A DNA stretch of 8,065 bases, taken from assembly GCA_022360105.1 (NCBI GenBank), contig JAKSDL010000483.1:1-8065 (forward strand). The letters are read 5' to 3'. Below, piece by piece: positions 1-8,065 of the stretch. Position 1 is the first letter of the stretch. The number at the start of each line of letters is the position of its first letter. Below the pieces are notes generated by a model. That model saw only the letters and a list, made by a program, of their open reading frames with translations, made no database searches and was not told where the DNA came from. This DNA is from Pseudomonadota bacterium. Its GTDB lineage: Bacteria; SAR324; XYD2-FULL-50-16; JAHJRI01. The position numbers and the translations under genes were made by a program.

Positions 1-110
<110 letters not shown>

Positions 111-283: not shown

Positions 284-1399
284 TCAACTGATCCGGTTTT
301 CAGTGTCCTGATCGAAAAAGATGGCTTTGGACATGTCCAACATTAATATCATATCTTCCCCGGGATTTTTCGCGTCGGCCGGCTGAACCCTGCAAGTCAC
401 CTCTTTGTCGTTAATCAAAACAAACACCAGTGTGTCGGGACCCGTGGGTTCAAGAACCTGGACACGGCACTTGAGTTCGTGAATGTCAGGGTTTCCTTCC
501 TGCTCCGGAAAACCGTGGGCGATTTTTTCGGGACGAATGCCCAGGATAACCTCTTTGCCGATGTAGGATGTTAAGTCGCAAACAGCAGCAGGGATGGGAA
601 TCTGTTTGCCGGTTTCTACTCCCGTATTGAGTTCAATGGCCGGTAAATTACCGGATTTCCCTACCTTGCAACGAATGAAATTCATCGAAGGAGATCCGAT
701 GAATCCGGCTACAAAAATGTTAGCAGGATTGTCATACACCTGCTGGGGACTGTCCAGTTGCTGCACAATACCGTCTTTCATAATGGCGATTCTGTCTGCC
801 AGGGTCATGGCCTCGATCTGATCATGAGTAACATAAACGATGGTGGTGTTGATACGCTGGTGAAGAAGTTTAATTTCTGTCCGCATCTCCACCCGCAATT
901 TGGCATCCAGGTTACTGAGTGGTTCGTCAAAAAGGAATACTGCAGGGTTTCGAGCGATAGCTCTACCCATCGCAACACGCTGTCTTTGTCCACCGGAAAG
1001 TTGGGAGGGTTTTCTATCCAACAGCTCGGTAATCTGCAGCAATTTGGCAACCCTTTCCACGGCATTTTCAATTTCCTGCTTGGGAACACCCCTGGTTTCC
1101 AATCCGAAGGAGATATTTTTATAGACTGTCATGTTTGGGTACAGCGCATAGCTCTGAAACACCATGGCTATATCACGGTCTTTGGGGCTAACCTTGTTAA
1201 CAACTCTATCACCTATGGCTATCTCTCCTGAAGTGATGGTTTCCAGCCCGGCTATCAGGTTCAGCAGGGTTGATTTTCCGCATCCTGAAGGACCGACCAG
1301 AACAAGGAATTCTCCCGATTCCACATCTATCGAAACCCCTTTTAGAACGTCCGTAGATCCAAAGGACTTGCATGCGTTTTTAATGGTAAGTGAAGCCAT
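284..1399 (-). CDS. gtsD: Carbohydrate ABC transporter ATPase, MalK/UgpC/GtsD type
   Basis: This is the 371-residue cytoplasmic ATPase that powers the importer encoded upstream. All nucleotide-binding motifs are intact: Walker A GPSGCGKST at residues 36-44, Q-loop Gln82, signature LSGGQ at 134-138, Walker B VFLFDEP at 154-160, D-loop SNLD at 162-165, and switch His192. From about residue 235 to the end is the TOBE/OB regulatory domain typical of MalK-like proteins, including GIRPE at 287-291. Length and domain order are normal for the family. The ATG at 1399 has a modest GAG ribosome site 7 nt upstream. Automated annotation often calls this family UgpC or MalK, but its place as the last gene after gtsA, gtsB and gtsC makes a glucose/mannose role more likely. 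Such ATPases can serve more than one importer. The gap to gtsC is 169 bp and holds a REP-like element, so its expression may differ from that of the permeases. Confidence 0.93.
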   Translation of the reverse strand: MASLTIKNACKSFGSTDVLKGVSIDVESGEFLVLVGPSGCGKSTLLNLIAGLETITSGEIAIGDRVVNKVSPKDRDIAMVFQSYALYPNMTVYKNISFGLETRGVPKQEIENAVERVAKLLQITELLDRKPSQLSGGQRQRVAMGRAIARNPAVFLFDEPLSNLDAKLRVEMRTEIKLLHQRINTTIVYVTHDQIEAMTLADRIAIMKDGIVQQLDSPQQVYDNPANIFVAGFIGSPSMNFIRCKVGKSGNLPAIELNTGVETGKQIPIPAAVCDLTSYIGKEVILGIRPEKIAHGFPEQEGNPDIHELKCRVQVLEPTGPDTLVFVLINDKEVTCRVQPADAKNPGEDMILMLDMSKAIFFDQDTENRIS

Positions 1400-1568: not shown

Positions 1569-2453
1569 TTACCCCTTCACCGAACCAGCCGTCAGACCCC
1601 TTAAAAAGTACTTGCCGGCCACGATATACACAAAAAGAGTGGGTAATCCGGCGATGATGGCAGCAGCCATGTCAACGTTATATCTTTTAACAGCCGAAGA
1701 GGTATTTACCAGATTATTCAATGCCACTGTTATAGGCTGCGTATCACCGGATGAGAAGACCACACCGAATAAAAAGTCGTTCCAGATCTGGGTGGTCTGC
1801 CAAATGATACTTACCACGAATATGGGAATAGACACAGGCAGCATGATCTTCCAGAAGATTCTGAAAAATCCGGCACCGTCTATGCGGGCTGCTTTAACCA
1901 GTTCATCGGGGATGGTGACATAAAAATTCCTGAAAAACAGGGTGGTAAAGGCCAAACCATAGACCACATGCACCAGGATCAAACCGGTGACATCTTGCGC
2001 TATATTAAGGATTCCCAGTGTCCGCGCCATGGGTAGCAGGATTACTTGAAACGGAATAAAACAACCGATCAACAACGAGGAAAATAAGATCTCGCTGCCC
2101 CTGAATCGCCATTTGGAAAAAACATAACCATTCACCGCACCAATCAACGTGGAGATGATCACAGCCGGTATCACCATGCGCACGGAGTTCCAGAAATAGA
2201 TTTTTATTCCTTCACACTTGACTCCAATACAGGCGGTATTCCAGGCATAAATCCATGGTTCCAGGGTGATGTCAACCGGGATGGAAATAATGGTGCCGTT
2301 GCGGATATCTTCCATGGTTTTAACTGAAGTGAAGACCATCACAATCAACGGTGCGATGAAATACAGCACAAACAGAAACAGTATGGCGTAGACAATAAAT
2401 CTTCCGATTTTTGCGCCTGTTGTTTGGGGAACAAAGTTAGATTCAGCTTTCAC
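1569..2453 (-). CDS. gtsC: Glucose/mannose-type ABC transporter permease (MalG family)
   Basis: This is an inner-membrane permease of the MalG class, 294 residues from the GTG start chosen here, with about six hydrophobic membrane segments (roughly 20-42, 93-111, 122-144, 155-173, 206-220, 263-280). The cytoplasmic coupling loop that docks on the ATPase is clear as KAARIDGAG near residues 187-195, followed by the conserved IFWKIMLP. The C-terminus GLTAGSVKG and internal stretches such as WNDFLFG and VALNNLV match what I recall of GtsC proteins. I chose GTG at 2453 because AGGAGA (2466-2461) lies 7 nt upstream. The longer in-frame ATG at 2492 would overlap gtsB by 50 bp and adds 13 residues of no family character. 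With the GTG start the overlap with gtsB is 11 bp, a normal arrangement for translational coupling. The loop after the first membrane segment holds two cysteines (near 75 and 80). Confidence 0.92.
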   Translation of the reverse strand: MKAESNFVPQTTGAKIGRFIVYAILFLFVLYFIAPLIVMVFTSVKTMEDIRNGTIISIPVDITLEPWIYAWNTACIGVKCEGIKIYFWNSVRMVIPAVIISTLIGAVNGYVFSKWRFRGSEILFSSLLIGCFIPFQVILLPMARTLGILNIAQDVTGLILVHVVYGLAFTTLFFRNFYVTIPDELVKAARIDGAGFFRIFWKIMLPVSIPIFVVSIIWQTTQIWNDFLFGVVFSSGDTQPITVALNNLVNTSSAVKRYNVDMAAAIIAGLPTLFVYIVAGKYFLRGLTAGSVKG

Positions 2454-3366
2454 GACGACTTCTCCTGAGTTCCGAGTATAGATAAGGGACAATAATAGCC
2501 ATCACCGTTGCAAACATCATCATTGCGCTGGCTGCCCCAAAAGCCAGGCGGTTTCTGGTAAAGGAAAAGGCATACATAAAAGTAGCCGGCAGATCTGACG
2601 AATAGCCCGGACCTCCCCTGGTCAGCACCATAACCAAGTCAAACGCCTTAATAGCAATATGGGACAGAATGATCATTGTACTGAAGAAAACCGGTCGTAA
2701 ACTGGGAATAATGATCCTTAAATAAATTCGAGGCAGGCTTGCCCCATCCACCTGTGCGGCTTTGATAATTGAGTCGTCAATGCCTCTTAATCCTGCAAGA
2801 AAGAGGGCCATGACAAATCCGGTGGACTGCCAGACTCCTGCAATAACCACCGTATAGATGGACATTTCGGAATTGACCAGCCAATCGAAAGTAAATTCCG
2901 CATATCCCATATTCTGCACCAGCCTTTCCAAACCCAGGTCCGGATTCAAAACCCATTTCCAGGCTGTACCGGTAACAATGAAGGAAAGGGCCATGGGGTA
3001 GAGATAAATGGTTCGTAAGGCGCCTTCGATTCGAATTTTCTGATCGATCAATATCGCCAGCAACAAGCCGAACACTGTGCAGAACAGGATGAACAAACCG
3101 CCAAACACAAACAGGTTCTGAATCGCTACCCACCAGCGTTCACTTTCGAACAATTTAATATACTGCTCAAACCCGACGATCTCGTATTTGGGAAGCAGCC
3201 TGGATTTTGTCAAAGACAGCCAGGCTGTCCAGATGATGAATCCGTAAACAAAGAAAAAGATGCAGGCAATGGTCGGAGACAGCACCACTTTGGGTAAGGC
3301 AATTTCCAACACATTAAGGAATTTCCTTACCGGGGTTTGTCCGCCGGAGGATGTCTGGCTGTTCAT
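2443..3366 (-). CDS. gtsB: Glucose/mannose-type ABC transporter permease (MalF family)
   Basis: This inner-membrane permease of the MalF class is 307 residues from ATG 3366. About six membrane segments are visible (roughly 27-51, 83-107, 119-138, 169-192, 225-245, 273-295). The coupling loop with the ATPase is KAAQVDGAS at residues 202-210, followed by the conserved Pro221. Stretches such as LYPMALSFIVTGTAWKW and TRGGPGYSSDLPATFMYA agree closely with my recollection of GtsB from Pseudomonas. It would pair with GtsC to form the membrane channel. The ATG at 3366 has an AGG ribosome site about 6 nt upstream. A TTG at 3420 lies in frame, but it falls inside a strong hairpin, lacks a ribosome site, and would place non-family residues at the front. 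The stop overlaps the start of gtsC. Confidence 0.92.
   Translation of the reverse strand: MNSQTSSGGQTPVRKFLNVLEIALPKVVLSPTIACIFFFVYGFIIWTAWLSLTKSRLLPKYEIVGFEQYIKLFESERWWVAIQNLFVFGGLFILFCTVFGLLLAILIDQKIRIEGALRTIYLYPMALSFIVTGTAWKWVLNPDLGLERLVQNMGYAEFTFDWLVNSEMSIYTVVIAGVWQSTGFVMALFLAGLRGIDDSIIKAAQVDGASLPRIYLRIIIPSLRPVFFSTMIILSHIAIKAFDLVMVLTRGGPGYSSDLPATFMYAFSFTRNRLAFGAASAMMMFATVMAIIVPYLYSELRRSRRES
2461..2466 (-). promoter_or_regulatory. Ribosome binding site that sets the gtsC start
   Basis: AGGAGA on the minus strand sits inside the 3' end of gtsB, 7 nt before a GTG codon at 2453-2451. It is the strongest ribosome site near either candidate start of gtsC and supports the shorter protein. Its location within the upstream gene suggests that ribosomes finishing gtsB re-initiate on gtsC. 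Confidence 0.7.
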
Positions 3367-3394
3367 CAGCGACCTGTTTCTGGAATGAATTAAA

Positions 3395-3426
3395 CCGGGG
3401 TTGTCACACAAAACCGCCAACCCCGG
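3395..3426 (-). promoter_or_regulatory. Strong hairpin between gtsA and gtsB (attenuator or mRNA stabiliser)
   Basis: CCGGGGTTG (3395-3403) and CAACCCCGG (3418-3426) form a perfect 9-bp, GC-rich stem with a 14-nt loop. In the transcript it begins 38 nt after the gtsA stop and precedes the gtsB start. On the minus strand it is followed only by TTTAATT, so it looks like a leaky terminator or a 3'-end stabiliser rather than a full stop. In binding-protein-dependent importers such a structure is a known way to make more binding protein than permease; that role here is inferred. Confidence 0.65.
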
Positions 3427-3464: not shown

Positions 3465-4718
3465 TTATTTAGCTGCCTGAACGGCGCTTGCCAATTGTTT
3501 GGCTGCTTTTGCAGAGCTCATGTTGGAATTGTAAAAGTTGGTCACAACATCAAATATCGCTCCTCTAACAGCAGGATAAACAGCCATTTCATGGGCCATA
3601 CTTGGCAGTAAGGTACCGCTGGCTGCACTAGCTGCAAAAGAATCAAACGAGCTGTGTGCACAATCATCAAATTTCATGCGGGACATTCCCAGTCGAACAG
3701 GGATGGAGCCCTTGAAGACGTTGAATACTTCCTGGAACGTTGGTTCCATGATCAGTCGGGCCATAGCCTTTTGGGCTTGCTTCGCACTTCTGCTTTTCTT
3801 TTCAAACATGATGAAACTATCAACGTTAAAGAGAAAACTGTTGCTGGTCTGGGGAACAGGCATGCAAACAAAATCTACACCTGGAGTTTTACCGGCTTTG
3901 GTGAATTCACCCTTGGCCCAGTCACCCATGAACTGCATAGCAGCTTTTCCGGTGATAACCATGGAGGTTGCCAGATTCCAGTCTCTACCCGGAGCACCCT
4001 TGTCAGTATAGGTCTTAATCATCTTCAGGATATCAAATGCCTTGACCATGGTTTTACTGTTCAAAGCGGCAGGATCTGCGTTCACCAGTGCTTTTTGGTA
4101 AAAATCCGCACCACCTACTCCAATAACAATGGATTCGAAAACGGTTGCTTCTTGCCAAGCTTGTCCACCAAAGGCAACAGGAATAAAGCCGGCTTTTTTG
4201 ATTTTTTTGGCCGAAGCTTCGAACTCGTCCCAATTGGTTGGAATCTTTGCACCGGCTTTTCTAAAAACGTCCGGGTTAACCCACATCCAGTTAATTTTAT
4301 GAACGTTTACAGGGACAGCTACATAGTGTCCATCATACTTCATGATATCGGCCACGACCTTTGGCAGCAACTTGTCCCAATTATTCTTTTTGGCCACATC
4401 ATCCAGATTAGTGAGAACACCTTCATCTCCCCATTGTTGAATTTGAGGACCCTTTACCTGGGCTGCAGTCGGCGGATTTCCGGATACTGCACGGGATCTT
4501 AAAACGGTCATGGCGTTTTCACCAGCTCCTCCGGCAACGGCAAAATCCTTCCAACCGTGCCCTTCCTTTTCAAGCATGTCTTTTAACACACCAACAGCTT
4601 TTGCCTCACCACCGGATGTCCACCAATGCAAAACTTCTACTTCACCACCGTATACATATCCGGTGACCATCCCGATAGAAATAAGAAAAGCTACTACCTG
4701 TTTCATTAAATATTTCAT
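3465..4718 (-). CDS. gtsA: Periplasmic glucose/mannose-type sugar-binding protein
   Basis: This is an extracytoplasmic solute-binding protein (family 1) of 417 residues that delivers sugar to GtsBC. Residues 1-25 form a signal peptide (short basic start, hydrophobic VVAFLISIGMV core, cleavage probably near Gly24/Gly25). There is no lipobox cysteine, so it should be soluble in the periplasm. The mature protein begins EVEVLHWWTSGGE, and the stretches VAGGAGENAM, SGNPPTAAQVKGP, KYDGHYVAVPVNVH and MQFMGDWAKGEF agree with the glucose/mannose-binding GtsA group as I remember it. The length fits. I chose ATG 4718 because GGAGAG lies 7 nt upstream and the signal peptide starts there; an upstream in-frame ATG at 4787 would add 23 charged residues before the signal. 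It is first in the transporter operon and has a 254-bp upstream gap with candidate control sites. The substrate is inferred from family likeness; other aldohexoses or oligosaccharides remain possible. Confidence 0.93.
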   Translation of the reverse strand: MKYLMKQVVAFLISIGMVTGYVYGGEVEVLHWWTSGGEAKAVGVLKDMLEKEGHGWKDFAVAGGAGENAMTVLRSRAVSGNPPTAAQVKGPQIQQWGDEGVLTNLDDVAKKNNWDKLLPKVVADIMKYDGHYVAVPVNVHKINWMWVNPDVFRKAGAKIPTNWDEFEASAKKIKKAGFIPVAFGGQAWQEATVFESIVIGVGGADFYQKALVNADPAALNSKTMVKAFDILKMIKTYTDKGAPGRDWNLATSMVITGKAAMQFMGDWAKGEFTKAGKTPGVDFVCMPVPQTSNSFLFNVDSFIMFEKKSRSAKQAQKAMARLIMEPTFQEVFNVFKGSIPVRLGMSRMKFDDCAHSSFDSFAASAASGTLLPSMAHEMAVYPAVRGAIFDVVTNFYNSNMSSAKAAKQLASAVQAAK

Positions 4719-4837
4719 TTTCTCGCTCTCCATTTTGGGGTTGAGTATCTTTGATTTCTCAATGATAAGGTCTCTAGCCGAACACACCGACTAAAATGTG
4801 GAAGTTCGCTCTATATTGAAAGTATTAGACCAAAAGC

Positions 4838-4932: not shown

Positions 4933-4976
4933 ATTGGGGCAGGGATGCCTCAACTATTGAGGCAGGGATACCTCAA
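4933..4976. repeat. Two tandem 20-bp palindromes, candidate enhancer or operator
   Basis: Two near-identical units repeat with a 23-bp period: 4933-4953 and 4956-4976 agree at 19 of 21 positions. Each unit is itself a palindrome, TTGRGG-N8-CCTCAA (4934-4953 and 4957-4976). The neighbouring inner arms also form an 8-bp hairpin, TGCCTCAA (4946-4953), loop CTA, TTGAGGCA (4957-4964). The right end overlaps the stop codon of the binding-protein gene at 4973. The array lies about 215-260 bp upstream of the gtsA start. It is well placed to bind a dimeric or oligomeric regulator such as the NtrC-like protein encoded nearby. A 3'-end RNA hairpin for the upstream gene is the alternative; no T-run follows it. 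Confidence 0.6.
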
Positions 4977-5986
4977 TCATATACCAGGTCACGCATCTTT
5001 TTTTCTGAAGAGTTGGCTTTGGTGACCATTTCGAAATCGATCACAATTCTGTCCGGAATGCCTTCTTGGGATTCTAAAAATCGATATCCCCAAAAAACTG
5101 CTGCCGAACCCATTTCTTCCGGTTTCTGAGCCAATGCCAGATCGACGATGCCGTTATCTATCGCTGTTACCATTTCCGGCGTGGTATCCCAAACGCCGAT
5201 TTTAACCGATCCTTCCAAGCCTGTTACCAGCATGGTTTGGATAATGCCTTTACCGCTGAGATCATTGGTGCAAAAAATGGCGTTGATATCAGGATGCTTT
5301 TGGACGATTTCCAGGGATTGCTTAAAGGCGTTACGTTCCAGCTCTTTACTGGAGCCTCCCAAGCCCTTGTCTGAATTGGAAAAATCGATACCTGCGATGT
5401 CAATTCCGACAATGGAAATGTTGGGGAACGATTCCAGCGCTTGCAGAAATGCTTTGAACCGTCTCGAAATCGAGGGAATATCCGGAAAGGTTGAGTTGAT
5501 ATAGACCGTTCCCTTGCTATCAATCAATTCAGCCATTCTGTCAGCCATCGCTTTGCCTCCCTTCCACTGATCTGTAGTGATATGCAACAAAGGAAAGCGT
5601 TGTTTTTGTTGAAGGTTCAAGTTTTTTGTGTTTATTTCGCGATTGATGGTAACAATTTTTATTCCCTGATTGTGAAGATCCAGCAGGGTTTGCCCCATTT
5701 TGCCATCTGAGGCAGGGGAAATCACCAAAATCTGCGGTGTATCGATGGTGAAAACGGATTGAATAATCTTGATTTGTTCATCAGCATCCCAACTTTCCGG
5801 ATATGCAGGGACTATGACCTGGGCGTTATATTCCCTGGCTTTTTTGCGTATTCCTTTTTCTACCGATTCATAAAACGAGCTTCGTTTTCCCGGAATATAC
5901 GCGATGGTAAATTTGCTCTTTGCCGCAAGATCACTTCCAACGATCAACAAGAATATGGGAACTAAAAACAAGCTTGGATATTTCAT
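4973..5986 (-). CDS. Orphan periplasmic sugar-binding protein, RbsB/LacI-like fold
   Basis: This 337-residue protein belongs to the periplasmic binding protein group shared by ribose, galactose and autoinducer-2 receptors (Peripla_BP_4-like). Residues 1-22 are a signal peptide ending SDLAA, with cleavage before KSKF and no lipobox. The mature part starts with strand FTIAYIPG, then helix FYESVEKGIRKKA, then ILVISPAS (86-93), VTINRE (112-117), QWKGGKAMADRM (140-151), NDLSGKG (241-247) and LAQKPEEMGSAAV (285-297), which follow the order of ribose-binding-type proteins. It differs in fold class from the family 1 binding protein gtsA. No matching permease or ATPase of the ribose class is visible. 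It sits downstream of a kinase and NtrC regulator on the same strand, so a sensory role, as for ChvE with VirA or LuxP with LuxQ, is a fair inference. The ATG at 5986 has no clear ribosome site; the preceding bases are T-rich. No alternative start was found nearby. Confidence 0.85.
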   Translation of the reverse strand: MKYPSLFLVPIFLLIVGSDLAAKSKFTIAYIPGKRSSFYESVEKGIRKKAREYNAQVIVPAYPESWDADEQIKIIQSVFTIDTPQILVISPASDGKMGQTLLDLHNQGIKIVTINREINTKNLNLQQKQRFPLLHITTDQWKGGKAMADRMAELIDSKGTVYINSTFPDIPSISRRFKAFLQALESFPNISIVGIDIAGIDFSNSDKGLGGSSKELERNAFKQSLEIVQKHPDINAIFCTNDLSGKGIIQTMLVTGLEGSVKIGVWDTTPEMVTAIDNGIVDLALAQKPEEMGSAAVFWGYRFLESQEGIPDRIVIDFEMVTKANSSEKKMRDLVYD

Positions 5987-6146
5987 AACAAAAACTGTCT
6001 GATTCAGGTCTCACAAAAAAGATTCGAACGGCTTTTCAATTTGACGGGTTGTAAAGCATTGGTGCCGTCTCTGCGGGGCTCAACTGTTCCTTGATGCCAA
6101 TTCAGTGGTTTCAACCGTTGGTTCAATGGTTACTTGAATGTTCCTA

Positions 6147-6159
6147 GTCCCGTAGGGAC
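6147..6159. repeat. Short perfect palindrome GTCCC-GTA-GGGAC
   Basis: A 5-bp GC-rich stem with a 3-nt loop lies in the 216-bp gap between the regulator gene and the binding-protein gene. To its left, 6101-6140 holds several degenerate AACC/GGTT arms, including the palindrome CAACCGTTG (6112-6120). The whole stretch has a REP-like look but is not copied elsewhere in this window. The remainder of the gap, 5987-6100, shows no gene and no convincing promoter. Confidence 0.35.
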
Positions 6160-6172
6160 GATACCGAATAAC

Positions 6173-6208
6173 ACCTGATTTTGTGATTGACAGACCTCCA
6201 AATCAGGT
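6173..6208 (-). terminator. Hairpin overlapping the end of the NtrC-like gene, weak terminator candidate
   Basis: ACCTGATTT (6173-6181) and AAATCAGGT (6200-6208) form a perfect 9-bp stem with an 18-nt loop. The arm at 6200-6208 includes the regulator's TGA stop codon. No U-tract follows on the minus strand, so it may act as a transcript end or stabiliser rather than a classical terminator. Confidence 0.35.
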
Positions 6209-7603
6209 CTCCTTGACTATATCGATGTTGTATTTTTGTATTTTGCGCCAAAGGGTCTTGCGATCCACTTTTAAGGCCTTGGCAGCCCTGGATTGGTTGT
6301 AATTTTCGCGGATCAGAAAATGTTCGATTACTTTTTTCTCGTATTCCACGCTGACCGCTTCAACCATTTCCTGAAGGGAGGTAAATTTTGAGAAATCCGG
6401 GCGCGGCAGTGTCTTATGTTGACCGAACAAAGAGCTGAACTCCAGGTCTTCGGCTTTAACTTGCGAGTCTTCGCTTAGCAAGATCACTTCGTTGATAACA
6501 TTTTTCAGCTGCCGAATATTTCCCGGCCAGGCACAGGAAACAAGCAGGTTTGTTGCATCATCGGAAAAGGTGTGAACGTCCTTGCGGTAGCGTTCGTTGT
6601 AAATTGATTTGAAATGATCAATGAGATGAACGATCTCCTCTTTGCGCTCTCTTAAAGGAGGCAGCTGAAGATTGACCACGTTGATGCGGTAGTAGAGATC
6701 TTCACGAAATTCTCCGCTTTCCACTTTTTGTTTTAAGTTACGATTGGTGGCCGTTAAGACACGCACATCAACGTGAATGGTTTTGTTTCCACCCACTCTT
6801 TCAAACGACTTGGATTCCAAAACTCTCAATAATGCGGCCTGACTGGCCTGTGTCATATCACCTATTTCATCCAAAAACAGGTGACCACCATCTGCCAGTT
6901 CAAACTTGCCTATCTTCACATTGTTGGCCCCTGTAAAAGCCCCTTTTTCATGACCGAATAGTTCGCTAAGCAGCAAAGGCTCGGAAATGGCAGCGCAATT
7001 AATAACGATAAAAGGTTTATCGCGTCGTTCCGACGTGTAATGGATATATTTAGCCAGTACTTCTTTGCCTGTGCCGCTTTCACCGGTAATGCAGATCGGG
7101 ACGGGTTCATTTTTAATCTTGTCTGCCTTATCCCGAATAAACTTCATTTGGTCGCCATGGGCCACAAAACCGTAGGGAAAGTCCCGTTTGATCAATTCAT
7201 TTTTGAGGCTTTTGTTTTCTTCCTGCAGGTTCTTGATTTCGAGACATTTCGTTATTGTCCCCAACAGCCGTTCATGATCGACCGGTTTTAACAAATAATC
7301 CTTGGCTCCCTCCTTCATCAGGGCAACTGCATCCTCGATATTGCCATATCCGGTAACCAGAATAATTATCATTTCCGGATATTGCCTTATTAGTTCTCTG
7401 AAGAGGTCGATGCCGGTTTTTTCTCCTTTCAGCCTGATGTCAAGTACGGCCACATCGATGTGCCATGTTCCGGCTGTTTTCAGCGCCTCCTCGTATTCCC
7501 CGGTATCGAATACATTGAATCGTTTTTTAAACCAGTTTTTCAATCCGTGGCGGATACCTTCCTCGTCATCGACGATCAGTACGGAAAGATTTGAATAGTC
7601 CAT
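6203..7603 (-). CDS. NtrC-family sigma-54-dependent response regulator
   Basis: This 466-residue cytoplasmic regulator is complete and appears fully functional. The receiver domain (about 5-120) has the acidic pair Asp12/Asp13, phospho-acceptor Asp55 in VAVLDIRL, Thr84 and Lys106. A linker helix follows (about 120-140). The AAA+ domain (about 145-375) has Walker A GESGTGKE (174-181), the sigma-54 contact loop GAFTGA (221-226), Walker B HLFLDEIG (241-248), the LYYRINV arginine at 306 and the WPGNIRQLKN sensor 2 region with Arg364. The C-terminus (about 420-460) is a Fis-type helix-turn-helix with SRAAKALKVDRKTLWRKI. An intact GAFTGA means it should activate sigma-54 promoters. I start at ATG 7603; the in-frame TTG at 7624 would add seven residues and neither has a clear ribosome site. 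It lies 60 bp after a histidine kinase gene, its likely partner. Its target genes are not proven; the neighbouring binding protein and gts operon are the obvious candidates. Confidence 0.93.
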   Translation of the reverse strand: MDYSNLSVLIVDDEEGIRHGLKNWFKKRFNVFDTGEYEEALKTAGTWHIDVAVLDIRLKGEKTGIDLFRELIRQYPEMIIILVTGYGNIEDAVALMKEGAKDYLLKPVDHERLLGTITKCLEIKNLQEENKSLKNELIKRDFPYGFVAHGDQMKFIRDKADKIKNEPVPICITGESGTGKEVLAKYIHYTSERRDKPFIVINCAAISEPLLLSELFGHEKGAFTGANNVKIGKFELADGGHLFLDEIGDMTQASQAALLRVLESKSFERVGGNKTIHVDVRVLTATNRNLKQKVESGEFREDLYYRINVVNLQLPPLRERKEEIVHLIDHFKSIYNERYRKDVHTFSDDATNLLVSCAWPGNIRQLKNVINEVILLSEDSQVKAEDLEFSSLFGQHKTLPRPDFSKFTSLQEMVEAVSVEYEKKVIEHFLIRENYNQSRAAKALKVDRKTLWRKIQKYNIDIVKET

Positions 7604-7663
7604 TGCTTTTTTTATTTGTTGCAATCGCGTGCATGTTTTCAGAATTGTCTTTCTGCAACTGTC

Positions 7664-8065
7664 TTAGTTTTCTGCCGCTATTTTTTCCTTGATGCTGACA
7701 GGCACTGAAATGGTGAAGACACTGCCTTTTTCCGGTTCACTTTCGACCTCAATGTCACCCCCGTGGTTTTTAACAATACCATAAACTACGGATAATCCAA
7801 GTCCTGTCCCGACTCCCGTTGGCTTGGTTGTGAAAAAGGGGTCAAATATTTTGGGAATAACCTCTTCGGACATGCCTATACCTGAATCCTGGATGACTAT
7901 TTTAATGGTGTCCCCACTACCTGAAGTAGTTGTGCTTACTTTTACTTCACCACCTTCCTGGCAAGCCTGCACAGAGTTTGTAAGCAGGTTGATAATGATC
8001 TGCTTGAATTCCGTCGAACTGATCGGTGTTTCAGGAATCGTTTCATCCAGGTGAAGGTCAATCAC
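7664..8065 (-). CDS. Sensor histidine kinase, C-terminal ATP-binding domain (partial)
   Basis: The last 133-134 residues of a histidine kinase are visible; the gene continues past the right edge, and the GTG-like codon at 8065 is not a real start. All ATP-binding (HATPase_c) boxes are present: N box with QIIINLLTNSVQA (fragment residues about 22-34), G1 DSGIGM (60-65), F box FDPFFTTK (74-81) and G2 GTGLGLS (86-92). The form is that of NtrB-like kinases, which usually pair with NtrC-type regulators such as the one encoded next. The histidine-phosphotransfer part, any membrane segments and any periplasmic sensor domain are outside the window, so the signal cannot be read here. Whether it has a periplasmic domain that could contact the orphan sugar-binding protein is the key unknown. 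Confidence 0.92.
   Translation of the reverse strand: MIDLHLDETIPETPISSTEFKQIIINLLTNSVQACQEGGEVKVSTTTSGSGDTIKIVIQDSGIGMSEEVIPKIFDPFFTTKPTGVGTGLGLSVVYGIVKNHGGDIEVESEPEKGSVFTISVPVSIKEKIAAEN

Follow-up and report, generated by a model that had tools for sequence, protein, structure and literature searches.

The stretch of DNA analysed here (the window; 8,065 nucleotides of contig JAKSDL010000483.1 from a SAR324 bacterium) carries a single series of minus-strand genes, comprising the end of a sensor histidine kinase gene, an NtrC-type regulator, a periplasmic binding protein of the RbsB class and a gts-type sugar importer. A first-pass annotation had described a consecutive kinase, NtrC-family regulator with an intact GAFTGA motif and RbsB-like protein without its own permease upstream of a glucose importer, and Pfam searches found all of these elements in place on the minus strand. 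The kinase, regulator and orphan binding protein are referred to below as the trio.

The kinase that the first-pass annotation had named is only partly contained in the window. Its C-terminal ATPase domain is present (7664..8065, minus strand; Pfam HATPase_c, 1.9e-29), but the 5' part of the gene lies beyond the window edge and approximately 133 residues are visible, which differ from P0135 at 1 of 129 residues. A full-length homologue of 717 residues, with its domain order assigned by Pfam, is encoded at 1799-3952 of L001 (JANQLH010000449.1), a locus from a SAR324 metagenome-assembled genome (MAG). Hydrophobic segments at residues 8-26 and 276-294, separated by approximately 250 residues, give this homologue a periplasmic domain flanked by two membrane segments, as had been envisaged for the window kinase, and it is not a cytoplasmic protein. 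The sensor domain is predicted to be Cache-like, with LuxQ among the best structure matches, and Pfam detected no receiver domain in the L001 kinase. The region upstream of the L001 kinase gene (L001 2-1426) encodes the terminal part of a hybrid kinase, together with a protein that matches DUF2914 weakly.

The regulator occupies an open frame at 6203-7624 on the minus strand, which gives a reading of 473 residues, or 466 residues from the probable ATG at 7603 (6203..7603). It is an NtrC-type sigma-54 activator, with a receiver domain (Pfam, 8.8e-23), an AAA+ domain (Sigma54_activat, 1.9e-68) whose GAFTGA motif is intact (residue 228 in the 473-residue reading), and a Fis-type helix-turn-helix domain (HTH_8, 2e-10). 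P0012 is identical to the window regulator from the ATG at 7603, and RpoN is encoded in G001, the draft genome (~6.7 Mb) to which L001 belongs. Between the regulator and the binding protein, the window contains 216 bases without a gene of their own (5987-6202), compared with 16 bases in L001.

The orphan binding protein (4973..5986, minus strand), the proposed sensor protein, belongs to the Peripla_BP_4 family (E 6.1e-36) and begins with a hydrophobic segment resembling a signal peptide. It contains a 15-residue insert (residues 202-216), located beside an almost invariant GIDIAGID motif and lacking in its nearest transport relatives. Directly past its stop codon is a perfect 8-bp hairpin (4946..4964, minus strand). 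An Rfam search of the window returned no match.

The importer follows on the same strand, with a binding protein of its own (SBP_bac_1, gts/glucose type; 3465..4787, probable start 4718 or 4733; Pfam 1e-31), a first permease (2443..3420, probable start near 3366), a second permease (1569..2492) and a MalK/UgpC-type ATPase (284..1399; NCBIfam PRK11650 above cut-off). Both permeases match BPD_transp_1, with GlcT and GlcU, respectively, as their best NCBIfam models, each under cut-off. All components of a gts-type system are present. In the PDB, the importer's binding protein matches 5dvf, described as 'Binding protein component of ABC sugar transporter' (5.1e-145), and 2b3b, described as 'glucose-binding protein' (8.8e-44), so that the system may fairly be called a glucose-type importer, as had been claimed. 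Its leader (4718..4836, minus strand) aligns with that of L001 over approximately 120 bases, with an imperfect dyad, ATCATTGA-N4-TCAAAGAT, in each.

Evidence that these genes belong together comes from L001, in which the kinase, regulator, binding protein and start of the first importer gene occur in the same order as in the window, with 93% identity for the regulator and 85% for the binding protein. The four-part order is thus conserved in a related genome and, because it recurs there, the grouping appears to be more than chance. In G001 the importer and the trio lie on separate contigs (C372, C465), joined by analogy with the window. The binding protein and the sensor part of the kinase are also rare. 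With a tool that scores only proteins sharing short words, homologues at E<=1e-3 numbered 11 for the binding protein and 8 for the kinase sensor part, the queries' own copies counted; for the regulator, the best 120 of 7999 scored matches were considered. When equal size of the longest listed contig is taken to indicate the same contig, gene order there being unread, binding protein and kinase matches coincide on contigs of 64451, 7137 (which carries the L001 kinase exactly) and 170402 bases; among the matches listed, binding protein and regulator coincide on contigs of 3230 and 170402 bases, and kinase and regulator on contigs of 4552, 7101, 14221 and 170402 bases. A close kinase/regulator pair lacking the binding protein was not encountered, although the 4552-, 7101- and 14221-base contigs, whose sequences are unread, list no binding protein, whether through truncation or true absence. 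A wider scan of genome contigs with two peptide patterns, which may miss distant relatives, returned two loci, the second from Gordonibacillus (L002, 25%), and 0 of 53 pattern matches on viral contigs encode a relative.

No permease adjoins the RbsB-class protein in the window, and none suited to it was recognized elsewhere in the relative's genome, in line with the orphan status first proposed. A PF02653 search of the draft G001 gave 18 matches, none ribose-type by eye (RbsA-type ATPases were not searched separately); all 18 lie in loci that were read and appear to be Liv-type, nucleoside-type or TrpXYZ-like. The six PF13407 matches in G001 comprise the window-type protein, three LacI-like regulators, and nucleoside-type and TrpX-like binding proteins, these labels and the preceding ones being visual assignments based on protein starts and gene order. 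Within the phylum, the closest transport relatives of the window-type protein (G034, G037 and G038; 27-28% identity, E about 4e-50 to 1e-50) stand alongside permease and ATPase genes, identified by Pfam for the L016 permease and by eye for the remainder, which suggests that the orphan descends from a transport protein. A weaker relative in G030 (E 2.5e-21) is a 579-residue double Peripla_BP_4 protein, flanked by a hybrid kinase and a receiver/kinase protein, and represents another binding-protein-plus-kinase unit (L019 5109-11133).

The best reading of this locus, and a reasonably probable one, is a three-component sugar sensor that controls the glucose importer. The RbsB-class protein would bind a sugar in the periplasm and, in its loaded or empty form, dock on the kinase at its Cache-like periplasmic domain, perhaps via the 15-residue insert. 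The kinase would then phosphorylate the NtrC-type regulator, which, together with sigma-54 RNA polymerase, would adjust transcription, most likely that of the neighbouring importer, judging by gene position.

Several known systems share parts of this design. In LuxP-LuxQ-LuxU-LuxO of Vibrio, an RbsB-class protein sits on a Cache-like kinase domain and an NtrC-type regulator acts at the end of the pathway; LuxP and LuxQ structures were also among the matches obtained here. Unlike the L001 kinase, which has no receiver, LuxQ is a hybrid kinase; it works with a separate phosphotransfer protein, and the Lux system serves quorum sensing. The RbsABC ribose importer differs in its RbsC-type permease, of which none adjoins the window binding protein and none was seen in the draft G001. 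GltR of the Pseudomonas GtrS-GltR pair is not known to be NtrC-type; the window regulator is NtrC-type and does not belong to the GltR class. PgtC of Salmonella is related to binding proteins, and the NCBIfam PgtA model matches the window regulator far under its cut-off. In the PgtC-PgtB-PgtA/PgtP system, a sensor protein, kinase and response regulator switch on a transporter, but PgtP transports phosphoglycerate and PgtC is termed membrane-localized (PMC11077982).

The nearest system in layout is CuaD-CuaS-CuaR/CuaABC of Ruminiclostridium cellulolyticum, in which an operon for a second binding protein, a kinase and a regulator precedes that of a sugar importer possessing a binding protein for itself, and the imported sugar is the one sensed (PMC10384115); it differs in being Gram-positive and responding to cellobiose, and the window regulator is instead an NtrC-type sigma-54 activator. 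With respect to the use of a sigma-54-type regulator, the nearest is AioX-AioS-AioR of arsenite oxidisers, which likewise combines a periplasmic binding protein with a kinase but senses arsenite and controls an oxidase rather than a sugar importer (PMC7533571). In the Pseudomonas AatJ/AauS-AauR system, whose kinase AauS resembles DctB, an ABC-transporter binding protein is required for full two-component signalling and an importer is also controlled; AatJ, however, is the transporter's own protein, the substrates are amino acids, and direct AatJ-AauS contact is left open in the relevant passages of PMC7386598. A glucose importer is involved in the GltB/GtrS-GltR system of Pseudomonas aeruginosa, where a periplasmic glucose-binding protein activates the kinase, but the activator is again the importer's own protein (PMC7927077). 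More generally, the genes are adjacent or very close in 10 of 11 characterised binding-protein/kinase couples (PMC11113362), which supports the sensor reading and also shows that such a sensor would be of an established kind.

The same importer was followed across 52 genomes of the phylum, in which its permease was found at E<=1e-60 in 20 and at E<=1e-110 in 16. The loci of these 16 genomes were read, with the upstream side visible in 14 (all except G017 and G030; for G001, on the separate contig L001). An orphan Peripla_BP_4 protein stands immediately upstream of the importer in 6 of the 14: G001, which has the window type, and G012, G021, G029, G033 and G040 (by Pfam, except G021, by 74% identity). 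Past the orphan protein, four of them (G012, G021, G033 and G040) encode a protein of approximately 190-200 residues and a CHASE5/HisKA_2 kinase (Pfam); in G029, which has the orthologous importer followed by a glucokinase gene, this region is clipped by the contig end. Neither an orphan protein nor such a module was found upstream in the other 8 (G015, G019, G025, G026, G027, G032, G043 and G044). The kinase accompanies the orphan protein in 5 of 5 genomes against 0 of these 8 (Fisher p 0.0008, ignoring relatedness), of which G043 carries a kinase and response regulator downstream of the importer. A Liv-type binding protein occurs near the importer in several of the eight (Pfam Peripla_BP_6 in G025) and in some module-bearing genomes.

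A search with the CHASE5-linked proteins gave matches in 8 of the 52 genomes and added G018, G020 and G022. The module again lies ahead of the importer binding protein in G018 and G020, while the G022 contig stops at the orphan protein, so that kinase, orphan protein and importer occur together in six genomes besides G001 (G012, G018, G020, G021, G033 and G040), the kinase being assigned by Pfam in four and, for G018 and G020, from its 77-85% identity to that of G012. A receiver protein is present in this module in G012, G018, G020, G021 and G033. The window-type and CHASE5-type binding proteins are treated as separate subfamilies because they gave no mutual blastp match at 1e-3. Compared at the same importer, the kinase of the window lineage is Cache-like and paired with a sigma-54 regulator of the NtrC type, whereas that of the other module is of the CHASE5/HisKA_2 type and is accompanied by a receiver protein and the ~190-200-residue protein. 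In the loci read, the last of these is conserved between the CHASE5 kinase and the orphan protein (L045 5661-6254, L041 7509-8075, L038 6954-7553 and L062 4658-5251), and the G012 copy and the L045 copy gave no Pfam match.

A tentative proposal, somewhat short of an even chance, is that an orphan RbsB-class protein and its matched kinase constitute an exchangeable sensor cartridge in SAR324, with two unrelated cartridges at one glucose importer, each with its own binding-protein subfamily, and with the 15-residue insert, conserved in the window family and acquired by it, as a candidate kinase-docking loop. Further CHASE5-linked-type proteins occur in G033, which has seven in total, six beyond the importer-linked one. 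One RbsB-class protein lies directly ahead of a kinase-like protein (L075 8312-11333; Pfam HATPase), one has a neighbour without any Pfam domain (L079), one comes after ATPase and permease genes by eye (L078), and no kinase was noticed beside the binding proteins at L074, L076 and L077. In G029, an RbsB-class copy is located directly ahead of a hybrid kinase (L080 8796-12609).

Related kinase/regulator pairs are also associated with importers. The next closest pair, in G032 (L024), shares 49% identity in the regulator and approximately 40% in the cytoplasmic part of the kinase, the sensor part being different. After its kinase and regulator comes an orphan SBP_bac_1 protein with 52% identity to the G030 importer binding protein, and the kinase gene is divergent from an importer that has a separate binding protein. 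At L023 of G030, a sister kinase, whose regulator was not seen there, is divergently oriented to an importer accompanied by a mannitol dehydrogenase gene. At L060 of G033, a sugar or polyol importer operon begins with a kinase and an NtrC-type regulator. This operon also encodes an extra double binding protein, a 688-residue SBP_bac_3/SBP_bac_1 fusion (L060 11332-13398). At the far end of the window, the C-terminal end of a short-chain dehydrogenase, recognized by eye (~3-110, plus strand), is convergent with the importer operon; a relative's locus (L036 5040-5858) has a whole short-chain dehydrogenase with the same ending, likewise convergent with the importer.

Several observations weigh against a sensor dedicated to the importer. 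No convincing -24/-12 sigma-54 site was found in the importer leaders of the window or L001: the best sites with GG and GC cores score 7/11 and 8/11, respectively, and lie at different places, and a 9/11 site in L001 has no GC core, with no counterpart found in the window. The regulator/binding-protein gap of the window and the region upstream of the L001 kinase likewise contain no convincing site. The importer leader and the L001 pre-kinase region share no 14-base motif, although such a motif arose in 23 and 17 of 100 shuffles. The hairpin between the binding protein and the importer is stable in the window (66-base fold, -20.7 kcal/mol, z -3.6); at the same position L001 has a different fold with two weaker hairpins (z -2.1). 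In addition, the importer is common without the trio, with a close permease in 16 of 52 genomes, whereas the trio was found in G001 alone, by kinase and regulator searches that scored the best 21 or 31 candidates of each genome. Further points concern the proteins themselves: the L001 kinase model is weak (predicted local distance difference test score, pLDDT, 60.9; Foldseek template-modelling (TM) scores to the query of 0.18-0.34 among the matches listed), chemoreceptor dCache domains fit it as well as LuxQ does, the binding-protein model fits transport proteins no less well than it fits AraP or XylFII, and the pocket residue D267 is altered in P0007, P0008 and P0010. The lack of a recognizable promoter and the hairpin between the two units would both favour a trio that serves other genes, with the importer a mere neighbour. 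This is unlikely given that the order is kept in L001, that a different orphan-protein-plus-kinase module occupies the same importer in other SAR324 genomes, and that the related kinases of G030 and G032 and the kinase/NtrC pair of G033 also adjoin sugar or polyol importers.

It is distinctly unlikely that the importer's own SBP_bac_1 protein activates the kinase while the RbsB-class protein does other work, such as chemotaxis. GltB binds GtrS and is required for its activation (PMC7927077), and the window importer's protein resembles such sugar-binding components; however, few homologues exist of either the orphan protein or the sensor part of the kinase, and their matches fall on equal-sized contigs, whereas the importer is widespread without either. 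Improbable to a still greater degree is an orphan protein that works with a permease encoded at another locus and stands beside the kinase incidentally. The nearest non-orphan relatives do adjoin permease and ATPase genes, but none of the 18 PF02653 matches of G001, a draft MAG in which a gene could be missing, was ribose-type by eye, and the other five of its six PF13407 matches are, likewise by eye, three LacI-like regulators and two binding proteins of different classes.

The three-component sugar sensor proposed in the first-pass annotation holds in its gene order, domains and conservation in L001, and none of the three refuting observations named there was made in the sequences read, but as an interpretation it is only partly supported, because docking and importer control are inferred, no good sigma-54 promoter was found and its novelty was overstated in view of AioXSR, CuaDSR and GltB-activated GtrS. 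The open-licence literature, in result lists of 10-15 rows, yielded no description of this combination, of a CHASE5/binding protein/glucose system or of SAR324 kinases with sugar importers. The features that seem new are a sigma-54-based form of such a sensor next to a gts importer and exchangeable orphan-protein-plus-kinase modules at one importer. The trio is real and has good support as a unit; its principle is ordinary, and it forms part of an interesting modular pattern in its lineage. If the proposed reading is correct, the occurrence within a single phylum of one importer that lacks an adjacent sensor, has a CHASE5-type sensor or has a Cache/sigma-54 sensor would provide a natural series for the shift of a binding protein from transport to signalling, with a defined insert to test, and would offer a concrete hypothesis of sugar detection for SAR324, an uncultured group.

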